Source: a virus | Reading direction: 5' to 3' (one strand) | IMG/VR virus record: IMGVR_UViG_3300046796_000431 | Span: 1-43,430 of that record | DNA: 43,430 nucleotides | Shown here: positions 8,289 to 43,380 of the stretch, one piece after another | Layout of the letters: every line of letters starts with the position of its first letter | How positions within the stretch are numbered: the stretch's first letter is position 1 | The notes under the pieces: generated by a model | Told to the model about the DNA's origin: nothing | The model's database searches: none | The model's input: only the letters and a program-made list of their open reading frames with translations | Program-made: the position numbers and the translations under genes

Positions 8289-9211
8289 CGGGAGTGGCTC
8301 CGGGGGACGAGACGGCGGCCACCCCCACCGATGTACCGGCCGATGCACCCGAGTTCGCGGGAGAAATCCCGAGAGGTATCGGCGGGGGCGCGGTGCAGCT
8401 GGCCTACCTGCACCCGGGGCAGGTGTCGCACTCGTGGCACATGTCCATGATGAACGCCATCGCCTACGACAAGTCCGTCGGCCTGAACATGATCGAGCGT
8501 GCGCCGCTGGCAGTCAGCTGCTCGGGACCGAACTCGCTGGTCGAGGGGCGCAACTTCGCAGCCAAGCATTTCCTCGACGAGACCGACGCCGGGTGGCTCA
8601 TGTTCATCGACACGGACATGGGGTTCGAGGCCGATGCGGTCGAGCGGGTGCGGCTCGCTGCCGACGCCGATTCCCGCCCGGTCGTCGGTGGTCTGTGCTT
8701 CGCACTCAAGCACATGGGTCCCGATGGCAAGGGCGGTTTCGTCGTCCGGCCGCTGCCGACGCTGTTCATGTGGGGGCAGACCCGCGACCAGGGCTTCGGT
8801 TTCGTCAACCGGTTCCGGTACCCGCCGGAGACGCTGGTTCAGGTTGCCGGTACTGGCGGGGCGTTCCTGCTGATCCACCGGAAGGTGCTGGAGAAGATCC
8901 GAGCCGACCAGGGCGACACCTGGTTTAACTTCATCCAGTACAAGGACGGATTGCAGGTTAGCGAGGACCTGTCATTCTGCTACCGGGTCGGCCAGCTCGG
9001 ATTCCCGATCTTCGTGCACTCCGGAGTCAAGGTGTCGCACCACAAGGAGTTCTGGCTCTCGGAGGACGACTACCGGATGCCGGACGAGGAGCCGATGGCC
9101 AAGCTTGCCGTTCCGGGGCCGCCCGTGGTAGACATGCAGACGGCGTGCGGGGAATGTGGCAACGTCTCGTGTGACGGCGGCTGGGGGTGCCTGCCCAGTG
9201 CAACCGATTGA
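8285..9211 (+). CDS. GT-A family glycosyltransferase
   Basis: 308 aa. After a disordered acidic N-terminus (1-35), the GT-A core shows NSLVEGRNFAAKHFL, the nucleotide-sugar/metal motif FIDTDMGFE (DTD, about residues 109-117), GTGGAFLLIH and the acceptor-side SEDLSFCYR (about residues 219-227). It should transfer a sugar from an activated donor to a protein or glycan. Its place between capsid and connector genes suggests glycosylation of virion proteins. It is coupled by overlap to genes on both sides and forms a unit with the next two genes. Confidence 0.85.
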   Translation: MTGVAPGDETAATPTDVPADAPEFAGEIPRGIGGGAVQLAYLHPGQVSHSWHMSMMNAIAYDKSVGLNMIERAPLAVSCSGPNSLVEGRNFAAKHFLDETDAGWLMFIDTDMGFEADAVERVRLAADADSRPVVGGLCFALKHMGPDGKGGFVVRPLPTLFMWGQTRDQGFGFVNRFRYPPETLVQVAGTGGAFLLIHRKVLEKIRADQGDTWFNFIQYKDGLQVSEDLSFCYRVGQLGFPIFVHSGVKVSHHKEFWLSEDDYRMPDEEPMAKLAVPGPPVVDMQTACGECGNVSCDGGWGCLPSATD

Positions 9212-9881
9212 ACTGGCACCCCTGCCTTCGTGGGACGGCGAGGCGACCTGGCGGACGTTTGAGGATGGCTCCTTCCATCAGTACGTGCACGGGGTCGAGC
9301 TTCAGAAAAGTACCGACGACCTCGCACGGTACGCCGATTTAATCGAGGCCAGCCAGCCGGATGTCGTGATCGAGACGGGTACACGGCGCGGCGGCTCGGC
9401 CCTGTGGTTTGCCCAGCAGGGACTGCAGGTCATCACGATCGACCGCGAACCCGGGGCGGGCACCGACGGCCGTAAGGTCGACGTGCACGAACAGAAGCAT
9501 ATCACCTGGTGGTCTGGACATGACTCGCTCGACGTCCAGGTGGCGGCAGCGATCCAGCGCCAGATCAAAGACGGCCAGCGGGTGATGGTCAGCCTCGACT
9601 CGGATCACCACATGGCGCATGTCATCGGCGAGATCTCGATGTGGGCTCCGTTTGTTACCCGGGGCTGCTACCTGGTGATCGAGGACGCGTGCTTTGACAT
9701 GTGGCCAGCCGAGCGGGCGCAGGTCGGTGGTTACAGCATCCCGAAGATCGGTGGGCCGTTGGGGGCGATCCGGCGGTGCCTGCCGTATCTGGAGCGCGGG
9801 GGTTTCTGGCGCGATACGGCCATCGAGGGTTTGTCGTCTGTCTCGCACTCGCCGGTTGGGTGGTGGCGGAACGGTGACTGA
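9198..9881 (+). CDS. Class I methyltransferase / CmcI-like protein
   Basis: 227 aa from GTG 9198 (ggggg upstream, 14-base overlap). The Rossmann-type SAM site is DVVIETGTRRGGSALWFA (about residues 55-72), then VITIDREPG, with VSLDSDHH and LVIEDACFD downstream. This matches the cephalosporin-hydroxylase/rhamnosyl O-methyltransferase-like branch, whose members often methylate sugars. Flanked by two glycosyltransferases, it may O-methylate the sugar they attach. The substrate cannot be read from sequence. Confidence 0.78.
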   Translation: MQPIELAPLPSWDGEATWRTFEDGSFHQYVHGVELQKSTDDLARYADLIEASQPDVVIETGTRRGGSALWFAQQGLQVITIDREPGAGTDGRKVDVHEQKHITWWSGHDSLDVQVAAAIQRQIKDGQRVMVSLDSDHHMAHVIGEISMWAPFVTRGCYLVIEDACFDMWPAERAQVGGYSIPKIGGPLGAIRRCLPYLERGGFWRDTAIEGLSSVSHSPVGWWRNGD

Positions 9882-23686: not shown

Positions 23687-23729
23687 ATTTTACCACATGG
23701 AGCGGCCCCGGGGGAATCCCCCGGGGGCC
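23687..23729 (-). promoter_or_regulatory. Hairpin plus TAAAAT leaderless promoter
   Basis: On the minus strand, a G/C hairpin (23704-23729, one bulge, AAT loop) is followed by the extended element ATGTGG-TAAAAT (-10 at 23687-23692) and, six bases on, the ATG at 23680. This is one member of the repeated block family seen at 24.2, 24.8, 27.3, 27.9, 28.6, 28.9 and 29.2 kb. The hairpin also terminates the upstream gene that stops at 23736. Confidence 0.65.
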
Positions 23730-29866: not shown

Positions 29867-30048
29867 GCGACGAACCGCAGGTAGAGGGTGAGGGTGATCG
29901 GGGCGACCACCACCGTGACCGACAGGCCGACGTACGCGACCGACAGGCCGACGGTGGTGCCGTTGCCCTGGCCCGAGCCGCCCGATTTCTTGACCTTCTT
30001 TTTGCGGGGGCGCATCCCCGGCATGTCGTTGGTCCACTCGTTCGGCAT
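29863..30048 (-). CDS. Small membrane protein, 61 aa
   Basis: 61 aa from ATG at 30048. N-terminal 30 residues are basic and Gly/Lys-rich (RPRKKKVKKSGGSGQGNG), followed by a long hydrophobic stretch (VGLSVAYVGLSVTVVVAPIT). Coupled to dUTPase upstream (TGATG) and to the next gene downstream. Function unknown. Confidence 0.6.
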   Translation of the reverse strand: MPNEWTNDMPGMRPRKKKVKKSGGSGQGNGTTVGLSVAYVGLSVTVVVAPITLTLYLRFVA

Positions 30049-30962
30049 CAGCGACCACTGCTTCCGTAGCCGTTGTGACCGCGCTCCGCCGGAGGCAGGT
30101 CGTCGACGTGTTCGAGCTGGCCGGTCCAGGCGGGCAGCAGCACGAACTGGGCGAGCCGGTCGCCAGCCTCGAACTGGACCGGGGTGTTGCTGCGGTTCTC
30201 GATCCCGACCATCAGCTCACCTCGATAACCGTGGTCGATGACCGCCTGCCGGACGTCACACCGATAGTTCGCCCAGGTCGACGAGCGTCCGGTGATCAGC
30301 CCGAACATGCCGTCGGGGATGGCGACGTGGACACCGGTGCTGACCAGGCTGTACTGCCCCGGCTCGATGTACGCCGGTTCGGAGATGCGCAGGTCGAGTC
30401 CGGCGTCGCCTTGGTACTTGCCGGGTTGCAGGTTCGCTGCCGCCCCTGCGACCAACAGCGGTCCCGGCTGGATCAGCTCCAGTTTTGCCGTCGGCTCTTC
30501 GGGGAAGTAGAGCGGCATCGGCACGACCGGGGGGCGTCCGTTCGGGGACAGCCGCGCCAGCAGCTCCGTCGGCTCGGGGAAGTTGAAATCGTCGTCGATG
30601 GTGTAGACCGTCGCACCGAGTTCGGCCCAGGCAGCGAGCTGGACGGAGCCAGCGATGTCGGTAAAGATCACGACGGGCTTACCGGCACGGAGAGCGAATG
30701 CGATCTCGGTGGGGGTGCCCAGGGTCGCGACGTGGCGGGGCAGGACCGCGACCAGGCTGTCAGCCAGGTAGATCGCCGTGTTGTTCAGGTTGTTGATGTA
30801 CCGGGCGTGCCCGGCGTCGTTGGTGTTGGCGACGTAAGCCATCCCGGGGCGGAACCCGCCGATCCCAGCCCTGACCAGCAGGGCGTTGAGGTCACCCAGG
30901 AACGAGCCGAGCCAACTGGACTCGCCAGCCTGGTCGATCGGGTGAGCGATGTAAGCGAACAA
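30048..30962 (-). CDS. dut: dUTPase fused to deoxyribosyltransferase-like domain
   Basis: 304 aa from TTG at 30962 (aaggag upstream). Residues 1-125 resemble the nucleoside 2-deoxyribosyltransferase fold: FAYIAHPID at the N-terminus, ADSLVAVLP and TLGTPTEIAFALRAGKPVVIF with a candidate nucleophile Glu. Residues 165-304 are a trimeric dUTPase with all five motifs: GDAGLDLRI, TGRSSTW, AVIDHGYRGEL, GDRLAQFVL and RGHNGYGSSGR. It lowers dUTP and supplies dUMP; the first domain may exchange deoxyribose between bases. Same operon as PurZ. Confidence 0.85.
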   Translation of the reverse strand: MFAYIAHPIDQAGESSWLGSFLGDLNALLVRAGIGGFRPGMAYVANTNDAGHARYINNLNNTAIYLADSLVAVLPRHVATLGTPTEIAFALRAGKPVVIFTDIAGSVQLAAWAELGATVYTIDDDFNFPEPTELLARLSPNGRPPVVPMPLYFPEEPTAKLELIQPGPLLVAGAAANLQPGKYQGDAGLDLRISEPAYIEPGQYSLVSTGVHVAIPDGMFGLITGRSSTWANYRCDVRQAVIDHGYRGELMVGIENRSNTPVQFEAGDRLAQFVLLPAWTGQLEHVDDLPPAERGHNGYGSSGR

Positions 30963-31017: not shown

Positions 31018-31476
31018 TCAGGCTTGCGGGTTGTCGCGGATCGGTCGGGTGAGGTCGACGATCTTGCTCGGGTCGAGCAGCACCTCGATGTGGGGCGCAG
31101 GGGTGTTCACGTGGATGACCAGCGGGGCATCCTTGGCCAGGTCATCCTGCGGCTGGACTCGCGGCGGGGCGAACGGGTCGGTATAACCGAAGAACGGGTC
31201 GAGGTACTCGAACGCCGTGCCCAGCCATCCATCGCGGAAGGTGATGTCCGCGTAGTCGACCCACTGCCGGTTGCGCTCACCGCCGTGCTGGCGGATCCGC
31301 ACCGACCCGTGCAGGTAGCCGAAACTGATGACCAGGTCGCCCCCGTTCAGCTGCAGTTCTTCCGGCCGACCCGGCACGGTGTGTAGCTTGTACCGGGCGA
31401 TGCACTTCCCCTTGAGCATGGCCATCAGTCCGGCAGGGGAGCGCTTCACGGTCACGGTCATGAGAGTGTCGGTCAT
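31018..31476 (-). CDS. Hypothetical protein in the PurZ operon, 152 aa
   Basis: 152 aa, beta-rich (LMTVTVKRSPAGLMAML, ARYKLHTVPGRPEELQLNGG, DLVISFGYLHGSVRIRQHGG) followed by acidic and Pro-rich segments (DPFFGYTDPFAPPRVQPQDD, LVIHVNTPAPHIEVLLDP). Not recognised. Placement between the MazG-like gene and dUTPase suggests a role linked to nucleotide or DNA modification, but no catalytic motif is visible. Confidence 0.6.
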   Translation of the reverse strand: MTDTLMTVTVKRSPAGLMAMLKGKCIARYKLHTVPGRPEELQLNGGDLVISFGYLHGSVRIRQHGGERNRQWVDYADITFRDGWLGTAFEYLDPFFGYTDPFAPPRVQPQDDLAKDAPLVIHVNTPAPHIEVLLDPSKIVDLTRPIRDNPQA

Positions 31477-31482
31477 GGGTGT

Positions 31483-32166
31483 CTACTCCGTTCCAGGCCA
31501 GGAGCCGAACTCCCGGACTCGTTGCGCCATTCGCACGTAAACGCCGATGTCGAGAAGCGTGTCCTTCGAGACGGGCCGACCCTCCATGATCGCCGACCGC
31601 CAGCGGGCAAACTTGCCTTCGAGGTAGAAGAAGATGCCGAGTTCGGCTGCCTCCTGGTCGTCGACCTCGCGACCGGCCAGCCGGGCGATGTTGCGGCCGA
31701 TGTCGATCAGGTCGGTTGCCCCGTACTCCACAGCCTTGTCGACGGTCTGGTCGATCTCGGCCTCGGCGGTGGTGCGCCACCACTCGGCGAGTTCGATCCG
31801 GCGCGGGTCGGTTGCTCGTTCGGCCTCGTCCATAGACTCGAAGTTCGCCCCGATTTCGGCGAGCAGGCTTTCACCCATTGCCGCCATGCCTGCTGTTCCC
31901 CGCGCCAGATCGGCCTGCTTCGGGCAGTTCGCCCCTGGCGTCTGGTCGCAGGTCCCGTCGCAGAACTGGGCGTGTGCTCCCTTGGGGTTGGTCTCCCACG
32001 GCAGTCGGTTGGCTCGTTCGACTGCCAGCGCTGTGTCGAGTGGCATGCGACCGCCGAACAGGGCCTTGCCGGTGGTCGGGAAGATGACGATCTTGTCGAT
32101 CATCCGGTGGAACGGCAGCCCGGCGAGGGTGCCGGACAGGGGCGAGTGGATGGTGCGCTCGTCCAT
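31483..32166 (-). CDS. MazG/DUF1599-like protein (MazZ candidate)
   Basis: 227 aa. Residues 1-80 are of unclear fold with a Cys cluster (CDGTCDQTPGANC). The C-terminal 110 residues are helical with YGATDLIDIGRNIARL, DDQEAAELGIFFYLEGKFARW and KDTLLDIGVYVRMAQR. This ExxE...DxxD-like acidic pattern fits the all-alpha NTP pyrophosphatase (MazG) superfamily, specifically DUF1599. In Z-phages a MazG-type enzyme (MazZ) turns dGTP into dGMP for PurZ. Directly downstream of and coupled to purZ (TGATG). Confidence 0.6.
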   Translation of the reverse strand: MDERTIHSPLSGTLAGLPFHRMIDKIVIFPTTGKALFGGRMPLDTALAVERANRLPWETNPKGAHAQFCDGTCDQTPGANCPKQADLARGTAGMAAMGESLLAEIGANFESMDEAERATDPRRIELAEWWRTTAEAEIDQTVDKAVEYGATDLIDIGRNIARLAGREVDDQEAAELGIFFYLEGKFARWRSAIMEGRPVSKDTLLDIGVYVRMAQRVREFGSWPGTE

Positions 32167-33194
32167 CAGACCTCCGTGACAGTGTTGGGACCGGTGCCGA
32201 CCAGCTCGATGTCGGCACCGATGATACCCTCGACCTCGTCCAGGTACTTCAGGACCTCGTCGTCGAGATCGGTCCGGTCGCGCTGGTTCGGATAGAGCTG
32301 GTCGACCATGGTGACGGCGACGCGGACGTTCGGGTGATACGAGCCCCCGCCGTTGGCCCGAACCGCAGCGGCGACGAGGTCCCAGTCGGGCTCGCCGACC
32401 CTGCGGATCTTCTTGGTGACGGTGGTGTATTCCAGGGGAAGGCCCAGATCCTCCCAGGTCGTCTCGCCCCTAAGCGGCCCCGAGTTGCCCGCGACCCGGA
32501 TCGGATAGACCCGCGCCACGACGATCACGCTGAACTCGGTGATCCACTCGTCCCACGGCGAGATACCCGCCATCGCCAGGAAGTCGACCGCCCGGCAGTC
32601 GGACGAGGTCACCTGCGGGTAGAATCCGGTGTGGAGGCCGAGCCCGTAGCCCTGGGTCCCCTCGATCACGACGTGGCGGGTGTCGTCCAGCTCGAACTGC
32701 CCCGGAGGGGACATCAGGTCAGAGAGGGCACCAACTGCGCTGATCGTGTCGGCGCGGCGCATGATCCGATCGGCCCGAGCACCCCCGACGCCCTTGCACG
32801 TCGACCCGATCGTGTTGACGAGACCGAGCAGGTTCTCGGCCTCCTTGTGGCGCTGGGTGAGGATCGTTGCGGACGGGTGGATCGTCAGCCGCCCGTAGAT
32901 CTGGTGCCCGTGCGACTCGGCGAGCAAGATCTCTTCGAGCAGCACGTCGATGTCGATCTCGGAACCGGCCGCGATGTGCAGCTGGCAGACGTCCGACACC
33001 ACGGCAGCGACCGGCAGAGCACGCAGCTTGAACTCGACCCCGTTCGAGTCGTAGGCGGTGTGTCCCGCGTTCGGCCCGGCAACGCGGATCGCGACGTCGC
33101 GTTCGCTGGTCTGGGATCGACCGAGGTGGGCGCAGATCGCGCCCTTTCCTTCGCTGCCGAACTGGCCCCCCACGACCACGGTCAATTTCGCCAT
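32166..33194 (-). CDS. purZ: PurZ, 2-aminoadenine pathway synthetase
   Basis: 342 aa from ATG at 33194 (aggagg upstream). PurA-family GTP/ATP-dependent ligase: VVGGQFGSEGKGA (residues 7-19), RVAGPNAGHTAY, EGTQGYGLGLHTGFYPQVTSSD and EYTTVTKKIRRVGE. In PurA the loop reads GDEGKG with the catalytic Asp; here it is Ser14 (GSEGKG), the change that defines PurZ, which joins aspartate to dGMP. It is shorter than PurA (about 430 aa), as usual for PurZ. Transcribed divergently from purB. Confidence 0.9.
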   Translation of the reverse strand: MAKLTVVVGGQFGSEGKGAICAHLGRSQTSERDVAIRVAGPNAGHTAYDSNGVEFKLRALPVAAVVSDVCQLHIAAGSEIDIDVLLEEILLAESHGHQIYGRLTIHPSATILTQRHKEAENLLGLVNTIGSTCKGVGGARADRIMRRADTISAVGALSDLMSPPGQFELDDTRHVVIEGTQGYGLGLHTGFYPQVTSSDCRAVDFLAMAGISPWDEWITEFSVIVVARVYPIRVAGNSGPLRGETTWEDLGLPLEYTTVTKKIRRVGEPDWDLVAAAVRANGGGSYHPNVRVAVTMVDQLYPNQRDRTDLDDEVLKYLDEVEGIIGADIELVGTGPNTVTEV

Positions 33195-33239
33195 GCAATT
33201 CCCTCCTCGGTGGACGGCCGGACAACCCGGGCCGCTGAG

Positions 33240-33312
33240 ACAATACCATACCAGGCCGCTTGGTGTGGCGTCAAGAGCGGTCTTGACTACGGGGCAAGCC
33301 GTGTGGTCCAAT
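33240..33312. promoter_or_regulatory. Divergent purZ/purB promoters with dyads
   Basis: Back-to-back -35 boxes form the perfect inverted repeat GTCAAGA-gcgg-TCTTGAC (33270-33287). Leftward: TTGACG (33269-33274), 18 bp, TATGGT (33245-33250). Rightward: TTGACT (33283-33288), 17-18 bp, a weak TCCAAT (33307-33312). Each side also has CTTG-N9-CAAG (33259-33275 minus; 33282-33298 plus). purB has no ribosome binding site and its ATG lies 8 bases after TCCAAT, so it may be leaderless. Confidence 0.7.
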
Positions 33313-33319
33313 CTACGCT

Positions 33320-34534
33320 ATGATCCCACGGTATAGGCATCCTACGGTCGAGTCGGAGTTCTCCGACCTCGGCACGTATCTGAACTGGCTGGAGGTCGAG
33401 CGGGTCACCCTCGCCGTCCAGATGCAACACGGTGTCGTGCCGACCAACGACCTGACCCGGGCGTTGGAGACGGCGTTGGCTCGGGTGGCGCTCTACTCGG
33501 ACGAGCACATCGCCGAGATCAAGACGTTGGAGCTGCAAACCGGTCATGACGTCGCGGCGTTCCTCGGCTGGCTGCGGGCACGCGTACCGCACGGTCAGTG
33601 GGTGCACTTCGGCCTGACCTCGTCTGACGTCGTGGACACCGGGCAGGCCATGCACTTCCGAGCGCTCGGTAAGCCGCTACACGACGAGCTGATCAAACTG
33701 GCGGGCCTGCTGTCCAAGTCGATCAAAAACGACCTGCCCGTGCTGGGCAAGACCCACGGACAGGCGGCCGAGCCAACGTCGATGCGTGTCCGGTCGTGGC
33801 ACTGGCTGTCGACCATCGAGACACCGCTGCTGGTCCTGTCCGACATGACCAAACGGATGTGCGTCTGCAAGCTGTCCGGGCCGGTCGGCACGTTCGCCCA
33901 CAACCCGCCGGAGGTCGAGCGGGAGGTGGCCCGTCGACTCGGCCTAATCCCGCAAGGAGCGGGGGCAAGCCAGATCGTACCGCGCACCCCGCTTGCGTTG
34001 TGGGCAGCCGCTGCCAGCACCCTGCTCGGTGCGTACGCCAAGATCGCGATGGACCTGCGGCTCATGAACCTCGACGGCGAGGTCTATTGGCCACGCAAAC
34101 CCAGTCACGTCGCCTCGTCGGCGATGGCGCACAAGAACAACCCGATCGAGGCCGAGCAGATGTCGGGTTTCTACCGGATCTCGCAGGGCTACGCGACGAT
34201 GTTGCAGCCGATGGAGCTGTGGCTTGAGCGGGACATCTCGCACTCGTCGGTCGAGCGGGTCGCCGTGCCGGACCTGTGGCACATCCTGATGACCGCGACC
34301 CAGCGGATGTACCGGATCTTGGAGTCGATGAGCGTCCGGCCGCTGATCACCTCGTACAACCTCGCCGAGAACAGCAACGCTGCCTGGTGCCACAAGGTCA
34401 CGCTTGAAGCGATTCGGGGCGGCATGTCGTGGCTGGGTGCGCGCGAGTACGCCCGAGAGTACGACACCGAGCCGTATGACGTCGACGGCGACGCCAAGCG
34501 GTTCTCGGCCAACTTCCCGAAGGGCAAGGAATGA
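33320..34534 (+). CDS. purB: Adenylosuccinate lyase (PurB)
   Basis: 404 aa, fumarase/aspartase superfamily. Active-site features are TGHDVAAF (His76), WVHFGLTSSDVVDT (His96, Ser101-Asp103), GKTHGQAAEPTS (His146, the general acid) and the signature loop SSAMAHKNNP (Ser266/267) with catalytic Ser. The enzyme removes fumarate from succinyl-aminopurine nucleotides, the step after PurZ (or PurA). Complete and of near-usual length (host enzymes about 430-475 aa). No ribosome binding site before the ATG. Confidence 0.92.
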   Translation: MIPRYRHPTVESEFSDLGTYLNWLEVERVTLAVQMQHGVVPTNDLTRALETALARVALYSDEHIAEIKTLELQTGHDVAAFLGWLRARVPHGQWVHFGLTSSDVVDTGQAMHFRALGKPLHDELIKLAGLLSKSIKNDLPVLGKTHGQAAEPTSMRVRSWHWLSTIETPLLVLSDMTKRMCVCKLSGPVGTFAHNPPEVEREVARRLGLIPQGAGASQIVPRTPLALWAAAASTLLGAYAKIAMDLRLMNLDGEVYWPRKPSHVASSAMAHKNNPIEAEQMSGFYRISQGYATMLQPMELWLERDISHSSVERVAVPDLWHILMTATQRMYRILESMSVRPLITSYNLAENSNAAWCHKVTLEAIRGGMSWLGAREYAREYDTEPYDVDGDAKRFSANFPKGKE

Positions 34535-40893: not shown

Positions 40894-43380
40894 ATGACAC
40901 TCATTCTCGCCCTAGAATGGGCGGCACAGGGGCAGCGGGTGCTGCCGGTCAATGGCAACACCAAGCGCCCCTTGATAAAGGCGTGGCAGGATCACTGCAC
41001 GGATGACACCGATGTAATCCGTGAGTGGTGGGCGCGCTACCCGCAAGCCCGTGTCGGGATGGCTACTGGCGAGCCCGGATACGACGTGCTCGATTTCGAC
41101 GTGGCGGACGGCAAGCCTGGCCTTGCCCAGTTGGAGAGGCTGATCGATGCAGGCATTCTCGTCCCTGGCACGTTCAGGGTGGTCGCCACCCCCTCCGGCG
41201 GGCGACACATCTGGCTGCGTGGGACAGACCAGAGGAATAAGCAGAATGACAAGTCCGTACCTGGCGTTGACTTTCGAGGCGTCGGGGGGATGGTCCTGGT
41301 TCCGGGTAACCCCGGCTATCGTTGGGTGGCTGGCTCGTCCCTCCAACTCATCGAACTCAAACGAGTTGACTGGGATACAGTTGCTGCCACTCTCAGCCCC
41401 GTACCAGTGGATGTGGTTCTACATCACCCCGCCCCGGTCAGCCGCCCTGATGTCGCTGTTCCGCAACATTCCTCTCGCCTAGTAGCGCCCAATAGAGTCG
41501 GCTACGATAACCCGATTGGGGAGGAGTCGCCGCTCGACTGGTTCTGCCGCAACAACGACATGGCGTATTGGCTGCGTGTCGACGGCTGGCGGTACGCTTA
41601 CGAACACGGGGGCCGCGCCTACTGGGTAAGACCGGGCAAAGACCCGAAAGACGGCGTGTCAGCAAACGTCATGGTCAACCCGGACGGGCGACAGACGCTG
41701 ATGAACTTCAGCTCGTCTGTGGACCTGCCAACCGACCGGGGGCTGAGTGTTGCGCAGTATTGGGCGCACACCCGGCACAGAGGCGACATGCGGGCTGCTG
41801 CGGGGGAGATACGGAAGACTCTCATGCCACGCCGGATGCCCCCCGCTGGTCCTCCGGCGACACAGGCGGCCCCGGCCGGTACGGACGCACCCCCAGCCGC
41901 TCCGGTGGCTCCCGCTGGCTCTCAGACGGCAAGCCTGGTGCTAGCGGCGGACGGTATACCTGACATGGTGCGCGACTTCTGGAAGGCCAGGCCCGAGCTG
42001 GCGGAGGTGTGGTGGCAAGCCCAGGTCAGCGACACCTCGCCGTGGGCCGTGTTGGGGACCGTCTTGGCGTGCGTCGCGGGTCGGATCGGTCCGCACGTGC
42101 GGATCCCACCGAAAGGAGGTGTAGGGGCGGCAGCGAGCCTGAACATCCTGGTAGCCATCAGCGGCGACTCGGGGGAAGGCAAGGGTGTTTCGGGGCAAGT
42201 GGCTCGAGGTTTCGTTGGAGCACCGTATCCGCCGTGGCGCAAGCCAGGCACCGGGCAGGGGATCGCCGCGATCTACACTGAACAGACCAAGGAGGGGCCG
42301 GTACAGTCGAATGACACTGCGATACTCAACGTCACGGAGATCACCCAACTCGGGGCGCACATGGAACAGAGGGGGGCCACGATCACCTCGACCCTACTCG
42401 AAGTCTACATGGGAGAGGAACTGGGCGAGCACTACGCCAACAAGGAACTCCGTCGTCCAGTTCGAGAGGGTACATACCGTCTTGCGCTGGTGGCTGGAGT
42501 ACAGCCAGACAATGCAAGCATCGTGTTCGATCATGCGGCGTCGGGCCTTCCCCAGAGGTTTGTATGGCTACCGGCGTACTGGCGTGAGGCCGTGCTGCCG
42601 GAAGGCCTTCTCGAACCACCTGCACCGGCCGGACCGCTACGCAAATGGCATGGATGGCCGCAGGTTCATCCGGGCACTCTCGACGAGACGCTACAGGTTG
42701 CGGACGAATGGACCCCGACTTCCGGACTCACCGCGCCTGACAAGGGCAAGAAGAAGGCCGAACCCGAGGCGGTCAGTGCTCCAAGCAAAGACGAGCTGCT
42801 GGTTACATACTCGCCGGGGGTTGCTCGGGCGATCCAGGGTGATCAGCGGAGACGGCGCAACGAGATCAAGCGCCGGAAGGATGCTGGGGAGATCTCGGCC
42901 GACCCGGACTCGCACATCATGCTCACCAAGATCAAAGCCGCCACCCTCTTGGCCGCTTGGCTAGACCACACCATTCACATCAGCGATGAGATGTGGATGC
43001 TGGCTGGCTGCTTGATCTGGATCAGCAACCAGACCCGGATCGAGGCCCAGGGTCGGATCTCCAAGCAGGCCGCCAACAAAACCGCCCAGAGGGCACGTGC
43101 CGTTATCGCCCAGAAGGCCATCGTCGACGAGGACCAGGAGCGCAAGCACAACGCGACCTACATCAAGGCCCTGGACCGCGTACTACACCTGGTGGCGGCA
43201 GCCGGACCGATGACGGTGGGTCAGATGCTCAAGAAGATGGCCTCGAAGGAGCGCAGCGCGTACAAGACGGCAGGCGTAGAGCTTGCCGACGTGCTGGCCG
43301 ATCTGGAGCTGGCGGGCAAGCTCCGGAGCCACGAGACGGACCGGTCGGGCAACCCCGCGACGGAGTGGATAGTCGCATGA
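40894..43380 (+). CDS. Primase-polymerase with helicase domain
   Basis: 828 aa. N-terminal AEP (prim-pol) catalytic domain: DVLDFDVADG (Asp67, Asp69), TPSGGRHIW (101-107) and GVDFRGVGGMVLVPG (Asp126). Residues 410-650 form a DUF3987-like ATPase: Walker A SGDSGEGKG (423-431), AILNVTEITQL with acidic Walker B, and LVAGVQPDNASIVFDHAA. The C-terminal third is helical with a basic region (RRRRNEIKRRKDAGE). It is the only polymerase visible; cyanophage S-2L, a 2-aminoadenine phage, also uses a PrimPol-family enzyme. Confidence 0.88.
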   Translation: MTLILALEWAAQGQRVLPVNGNTKRPLIKAWQDHCTDDTDVIREWWARYPQARVGMATGEPGYDVLDFDVADGKPGLAQLERLIDAGILVPGTFRVVATPSGGRHIWLRGTDQRNKQNDKSVPGVDFRGVGGMVLVPGNPGYRWVAGSSLQLIELKRVDWDTVAATLSPVPVDVVLHHPAPVSRPDVAVPQHSSRLVAPNRVGYDNPIGEESPLDWFCRNNDMAYWLRVDGWRYAYEHGGRAYWVRPGKDPKDGVSANVMVNPDGRQTLMNFSSSVDLPTDRGLSVAQYWAHTRHRGDMRAAAGEIRKTLMPRRMPPAGPPATQAAPAGTDAPPAAPVAPAGSQTASLVLAADGIPDMVRDFWKARPELAEVWWQAQVSDTSPWAVLGTVLACVAGRIGPHVRIPPKGGVGAAASLNILVAISGDSGEGKGVSGQVARGFVGAPYPPWRKPGTGQGIAAIYTEQTKEGPVQSNDTAILNVTEITQLGAHMEQRGATITSTLLEVYMGEELGEHYANKELRRPVREGTYRLALVAGVQPDNASIVFDHAASGLPQRFVWLPAYWREAVLPEGLLEPPAPAGPLRKWHGWPQVHPGTLDETLQVADEWTPTSGLTAPDKGKKKAEPEAVSAPSKDELLVTYSPGVARAIQGDQRRRRNEIKRRKDAGEISADPDSHIMLTKIKAATLLAAWLDHTIHISDEMWMLAGCLIWISNQTRIEAQGRISKQAANKTAQRARAVIAQKAIVDEDQERKHNATYIKALDRVLHLVAAAGPMTVGQMLKKMASKERSAYKTAGVELADVLADLELAGKLRSHETDRSGNPATEWIVA

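Follow-up and report, generated by a model that had tools for sequence, protein, structure and literature searches.

A divergent purZ0-purB pair in a tailed phage and its predicted two-step contribution to Z-genome synthesis

The purZ0-purB locus and its surroundings

The window, by which the whole stretch of 43,430 bases analysed here is meant, is a linear IMG/VR record, and its genes for terminase, portal protein, protease, capsid and tape measure assign it to a tailed phage; like its close relatives, it is a metagenomic sequence. At the locus under study, a minus-strand ORF and a plus-strand lyase gene diverge from each other, both at the positions given in the first-pass annotation (Table 1). 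By homology, purZ starts at the ATG at 33194 rather than at TTG 33311, where the listed ORF began, and the corresponding N-terminus reads MAKLTVVVGGQFGSEGKG.

Table 1. Features of the purZ0-purB locus and its surroundings (window coordinates)
Feature	Coordinates	Strand	Basis or remark
DmtZ-DutZ-like fusion: N-terminal nucleoside deoxyribosyltransferase-like and C-terminal dUTPase domain	30048..30962	-	PF00692, weak PF05014
152-aa protein, no assigned function	31018..31476	-	tblastn matches only in L006-L011 (window clade); between helper gene and dmtZ-dutZ
227-aa protein, uncharacterised C-terminal family (~100 aa, 31486-31797, helical)	31483..32166	-	after purZ
purZ0, predicted dSMP (2-amino-dAMP-succinate) synthetase, 342 aa	32166..33194	-	NF038379, PDB match, tree
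Divergent promoter region, 125 bp, between purZ and purB	33195..33319	.	promoter scan; function inferred
TTGACN-18-TAnnnT element toward purZ	33274 to 33245	-	promoter scan; inferred promoter
purB, 404 aa, member of the adenylosuccinate lyase family, predicted to cleave dSMP into dZMP and fumarate	33320..34534	+	TIGR00928, model, residues, lineage
PrimPol (primase-polymerase), sole DNA polymerase recognised in the window	40894..43380	+	PF09250 3e-27

The synthetase belongs to the PurA superfamily (PF00709) and carries Ser14 in the loop GGQFGSEGKG, at the position which alignments equate with Asp13 of PurA, the GDEGKG motif being changed to GSEGKG. It reaches 332.9 bits with the NCBIfam PurZ model NF038379 (cut-off 300), whereas the PurA equivalog models remain far under their own cut-offs. 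Its best relative in the PDB is 7vf6, the PurZ0 of Gordonia phage Archimedes (275 bits, compared with 124 bits for PurZ of phiVC8). In the PurZ tree, the window falls within the PurZ0 clade (support 99), and a branch with support 100 parts all Ser-bearing enzymes from PurA. The identification of the GSEGKG protein as PurZ in the first-pass annotation thus holds, also by the phylogenetic comparison with PurA, and is narrowed to the subfamily PurZ0. As to the nucleotide requirement of these enzymes, PurZ0 prefers GTP, whereas PurZ uses ATP. In PMC12884076, this preference is stated in the opposite sense.

The product of purB matches TIGR00928 with E = 4e-66 and 223.5 bits, which lies under the equivalog cut-off of 326 and therefore marks a divergent family member rather than a standard PurB equivalog. 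Its AlphaFold model (pLDDT 89.8, pTM 0.89) adopts the fumarase-superfamily fold and finds bacterial adenylosuccinate lyases as top PDB matches, with TM values up to 0.84, while the best viral match is the PurB of Archimedes. The lyase-invariant residues H76, T100-S101, D103, H146, Q218, R222, S266, K272, N274, E279, R304, S309 and R313 are present, including the catalytic His, Ser, Lys, Asn and Glu (H76, H146, S266/S267, K272, N274 and E279). Of the earlier description as a complete lyase with all active-site motifs, full length and invariant residues are borne out, but the signature loop is altered, reading SSAMAHKNNP in place of the usual SSAMPHKRNP. Of the 122 cellular homologues sampled, 121 have Arg or Lys after the catalytic Lys of this loop, whereas just 19 of 36 PurZ0-linked PurB proteins have Arg there, and the change of the preceding Pro to Ala occurs in 7/36 of the latter versus 0/122 of the former; this contrast is suggestive only, because PurB of the Mycobacterium type likewise varies at the Arg/Lys position. 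Loss of both the Pro and the Arg/Lys from the window loop could change activity. The nearest bacterial PurB shares just ~36% identity with the window protein, and hence no recent capture from a host is visible.

The promoter-like element between both genes is conserved in the 7 aligned purZ-purB intergenic regions of the window clade. The 227-aa protein encoded after purZ gave no Pfam or PHROG match, yet its C-terminal family recurs in 108 of the 123 PurZ0 loci examined, in 98 of them directly after purZ on the same strand. Arthrobacter phages constitute the exception, as Wayne carries DUF5664 (PF18909) at this place; an assignment of the window gene to DUF5664 was dropped, since Pfam gives PF18909 in Wayne and not in the window gene. 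A fold search with a model of this helper family returned weak, non-significant matches to the MazG-like DR2231, and the protein is possibly a MazG-like dNTP hydrolase. In the DmtZ-DutZ-like fusion, whose counterpart has been functionally described (PMC12884076), the DmtZ catalytic residues Tyr6, Asp12, Asn77 and Glu103 are all conserved, and it is predicted by analogy to take part in dATP/dGTP hydrolysis and dAMP/Z chemistry.

Genes for a helicase, a Cas4-type exonuclease and PrimPol lie downstream of purB. A family-A polymerase (PF00476; DpoZ) was found neither in the whole window record nor in its six relatives (L006-L011), whereas every other PurZ0 isolate tested possesses one; S-2L is devoid of it as well, and DpoZ is a common rather than universal trait of Z-genome phages.

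Elsewhere in the window, the GC-rich palindrome CCGCCCCGGGGGATTCCCCCGGGGCGG is repeated at 23702, 27863, 28565, 28912 and 29133 across a region of small genes, three copies being followed by the promoter-like sequence TATGGTAnAATA in an arrangement that resembles operator-promoter repeats. In addition, a CmcI/rhamnosyl O-methyltransferase-like gene (9156-9881, plus strand) is situated amid structural genes.

Occurrence and lineage of phage PurB

The head-to-head arrangement of purZ and purB is kept in seven further metagenomic contigs, eight with the window, and the pair is therefore not due to chance. In the lineage of contigs L051 and L072, purZ, the helper family gene, purB and dmtZ/dutZ overlap end to end in a single operon. 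Among 50,697 phage records, 11 contain a convincing PurB, six from Gordonia and five from Streptomyces phages, a count which leaves out unannotated matches labelled as Listeria or Staphylococcus phage and which equals the PurZ records of Gordonia and Streptomyces phages in number and organism. Adenylosuccinate lyase is annotated in the Gordonia phages Ghobes (gp36, AOE44413.1), Archimedes, Sapo and Frizzle as well as in the Streptomyces phages Hiyaa, Keanu, Galactica and Spocter. Hence, the pairing of PurZ with PurB is not unique to the window phage, as isolated Gordonia and Streptomyces phages have both. The PurB of Microcystis phage MaAM05 (L093, MW495066) was not counted as a phage protein, because its neighbours metG, mtaB, glgX and ftsH look bacterial-chromosomal; this record may not represent a phage.

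By whole-record scan, all six closest relatives of the window encode PurB, as do the tested phages of Gordonia and Streptomyces and several PurZ0 contigs from metagenomes. The same scan found it in none of the tested PurZ0 phages of Arthrobacter, Microbacterium, Micrococcus and Curtobacterium and in none of the six PurZ-type phages tested. PurB is thus not essential for Z phages, given its absence from Arthrobacter and Microbacterium PurZ0 phages and from these PurZ-type phages. A scan of viral contigs with the window PurB alone gave no match, while an alignment query did find matches. Among 80 PurB-bearing IMG/VR contigs, many of them fragments, 35 encode a PurZ above cut-off, and some large viral contigs hold PurB without a curated PurZ; since the phages are related, such co-occurrence counts are not independent samples.

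Separately, PurA-like synthetases that are divergent, score under the PurZ cut-off and bear Ser in place of Asp13 were observed on PurB-bearing viral contigs (L274-L280 and L282-L284) of 13-427 kb, some of them very large. Their loops read GGQWGSEGKG, GQWGSCGKG, GGQAGSEGKG or AWGSSGKGK, and it is possible that they constitute further PurZ-like groups paired with PurB.

The ancestry of the phage lyase is distinct. In a careful PurB tree, the 47 cellular and other viral sequences form one clade (100/100), outside of which all 28 PurZ0-linked PurB proteins are placed, so that the phylogenetic check proposed for the lyase sets the latter apart from cellular PurB. In a tree rooted on paralogs and built by a quick method, the 22 PurZ0-linked PurB sampled form one clade (SH-aLRT 94). 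Long branches occur in the PurB tree for the Gordonia and 'small' lineages, and archaeal PurB is thinly sampled, the intended archaeal draw (the phylum of G093) having yielded large genomes that are unlikely to be archaeal. Moreover, PurZ and PurB distances among the same 29 phages are correlated with r = 0.90, a value reached in 0 of 9999 permutations, with r at 0.87 for comparisons across groups and at 0.70 inside the window clade. Family assignment, catalytic residues, conserved adjacency and a PurB lineage that stands apart from the cellular proteins and is congruent with PurZ0 are all direct observations. At the level of sequence comparison, they show that PurB is usual in this PurZ0 branch and has travelled with PurZ0 as one phage lineage, being retained across very divergent PurZ0 lineages.

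Mapped on the PurZ0 tree, the presence of PurB requires two changes, namely one clade without it (Arthrobacter, Microbacterium and kin) and one 30-kb fragment, although the PurB-positive set was partly collected by PurB search and presence is consequently over-sampled. This pattern suggests that dependence on host PurB is a derived state among PurZ0 phages, most of the studied members of which come from the Arthrobacter/Microbacterium lineage. An ancestral presence followed by one loss goes beyond the counts themselves in assigning a direction to the change. Even chances are given to the wider proposal that a dedicated PurB lineage, specialised for dSMP, was already present in the ancestor of PurZ0 phages, which would make their version of the Z pathway a phage-owned two-step route, while the host-PurB model would describe a derived condition that arose by one loss in the Arthrobacter/Microbacterium lineage.

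Predicted pathway and competing explanations

The window harbours both PurZ0 and a predicted dATP-removing enzyme, the DmtZ-DutZ-like fusion with conserved residues, a combination that serves as criterion for Z-genome phages. In the proposed scheme, the reactions of which follow those of the respective families (PMC12884076, PMC8342488, PMC8065100), DmtZ-DutZ and probably the helper protein would hydrolyse dATP and dGTP, thereby clearing dATP and supplying PurZ0 with dGMP; the step from dGTP to dGMP would fall to DutZ and perhaps also to the helper. PurZ0 would then join dGMP and aspartate to dSMP at the expense of a nucleoside triphosphate, whereupon the phage PurB would cleave dSMP to dZMP and fumarate, the step usually credited to the host enzyme. 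Host kinases would convert dZMP to dZTP, and PrimPol would probably replicate the genome on a dATP-poor pool in the manner of S-2L, DpoZ being absent from the clade. Substrates, expression and Z in the DNA are inferred parts of this scheme, as is the reason for keeping PurB, which may lie in independence from the host PurB level or in specificity.

Judged by its gene content, the window very probably represents a tailed 2-aminoadenine phage from the PurZ0 branch which encodes two successive steps of dZTP formation, PurZ0 followed by its own PurB, for a Z genome. Because PurZ0 and PurB are surrounded by the DmtZ-DutZ fusion, PrimPol and the PurZ0-linked helper gene, the predicted replacement of A by 2-aminoadenine in this genome is likely but unproven. 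The idea that PurB is tuned for the succino-aminodeoxy-nucleotide is supported indirectly, in that the PurZ0-linked PurB proteins constitute a lineage of their own which evolves together with PurZ0.

Other explanations account for parts of these data. That PurB merely duplicates the host enzyme as a redundant back-up, raising dosage with the same, unspecialised chemistry, is only slightly less than an even prospect: the catalytic core of the window protein is conventional and related PurZ0 phages manage without the gene, although the gene is kept rather than lost across very divergent lineages, and the changes in the signature loop are hardly seen in the 122 cellular homologues sampled, even if Mycobacterium-type PurB varies there too. 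A role as general auxiliary metabolic gene, which boosts host purine synthesis at the steps from SAICAR to AICAR and from SAMP to AMP and neighbours purZ by coincidence, is improbable. Cellular PurB is indeed bifunctional and some large viral contigs encode PurB without a curated PurZ, as such a role would allow; on the other hand, convincing PurB proteins of isolated phages occur solely alongside PurZ0, they form an own lineage congruent with it, the two genes are operonic or head to head, and the scan of window ORFs brought up no further gene of purine synthesis.

The notion that the synthetase itself is a viral PurA which acts on IMP, in a phage with ordinary A-containing DNA, can draw on membership in the PurA superfamily and is nevertheless highly improbable in view of Ser14, the PurZ score above and the PurA scores far under their cut-offs, the placement within PurZ0 and the adjacent DmtZ-DutZ. 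The window locus is best described, on the predicted functions of its genes, as a true two-step Z module and a variant of the known PurZ0 system.

Relation to known Z phages and implications

The conversion of dSMP to dZMP is credited to the host in PMC12884076 and PMC12783734, in keeping with the first-pass annotation, according to which the host supplies PurB in the described pathway. The words PurB and lyase are absent from the main text of PMC12884076, though Ghobes is its model phage. A discussion of phage PurB in the Z pathway was not found in the open literature searched, where the link between PurZ0 and a phage PurB lineage dedicated to it seems to have gone unremarked. New here are the conserved head-to-head arrangement, the overlapping operon, the separate PurB lineage, the congruence of PurZ and PurB, the PurB-lacking clade and the DpoZ-less clade.

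The Gordonia phages Ghobes, Sapo, Frizzle and Archimedes share with the window PurZ0, a purB gene oriented divergently to purZ, genes of the DmtZ and DutZ type and the order of helicase, Cas4 and PrimPol. They differ by a purB gene ~6-7 kb away from purZ, by separate DmtZ and DutZ, by the presence of DNA polymerase I and by a PurB of just ~25-29% identity to that of the window. The Streptomyces phages Hiyaa, Keanu, Galactica and Spocter also encode both PurZ0 and PurB, but their genomes measure ~82 kb, purB follows downstream of purZ at a distance of ~4-5 kb and on the same strand, and the two tested have a family-A polymerase. Arthrobacter phage Wayne, a model PurZ0 phage, resembles the window in PurZ0, the DmtZ-DutZ fusion and PrimPol, yet its whole record is devoid of PurB and it features DUF5664 after purZ as well as DpoZ. 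Cyanophage S-2L combines a PurZ-type pathway with PrimPol and likewise has no family-A polymerase (PMC8065100), whereas its synthetase is PurZ instead of PurZ0, DatZ and MazZ take the place of DmtZ-DutZ, and PurB is absent.

Phage isolates already available for Gordonia, Streptomyces and Arthrobacter allow a direct test of where PurZ0 phages have lost or retained PurB and of the missing DpoZ in the window clade. Should a phage-encoded lyase be common among Z phages, host PurB may restrict them less, a matched pair of PurZ and PurB enzymes could serve in engineered Z-DNA production, and the Z pathway would have to be seen as originating with PurZ0 together with PurB, not with PurZ alone.
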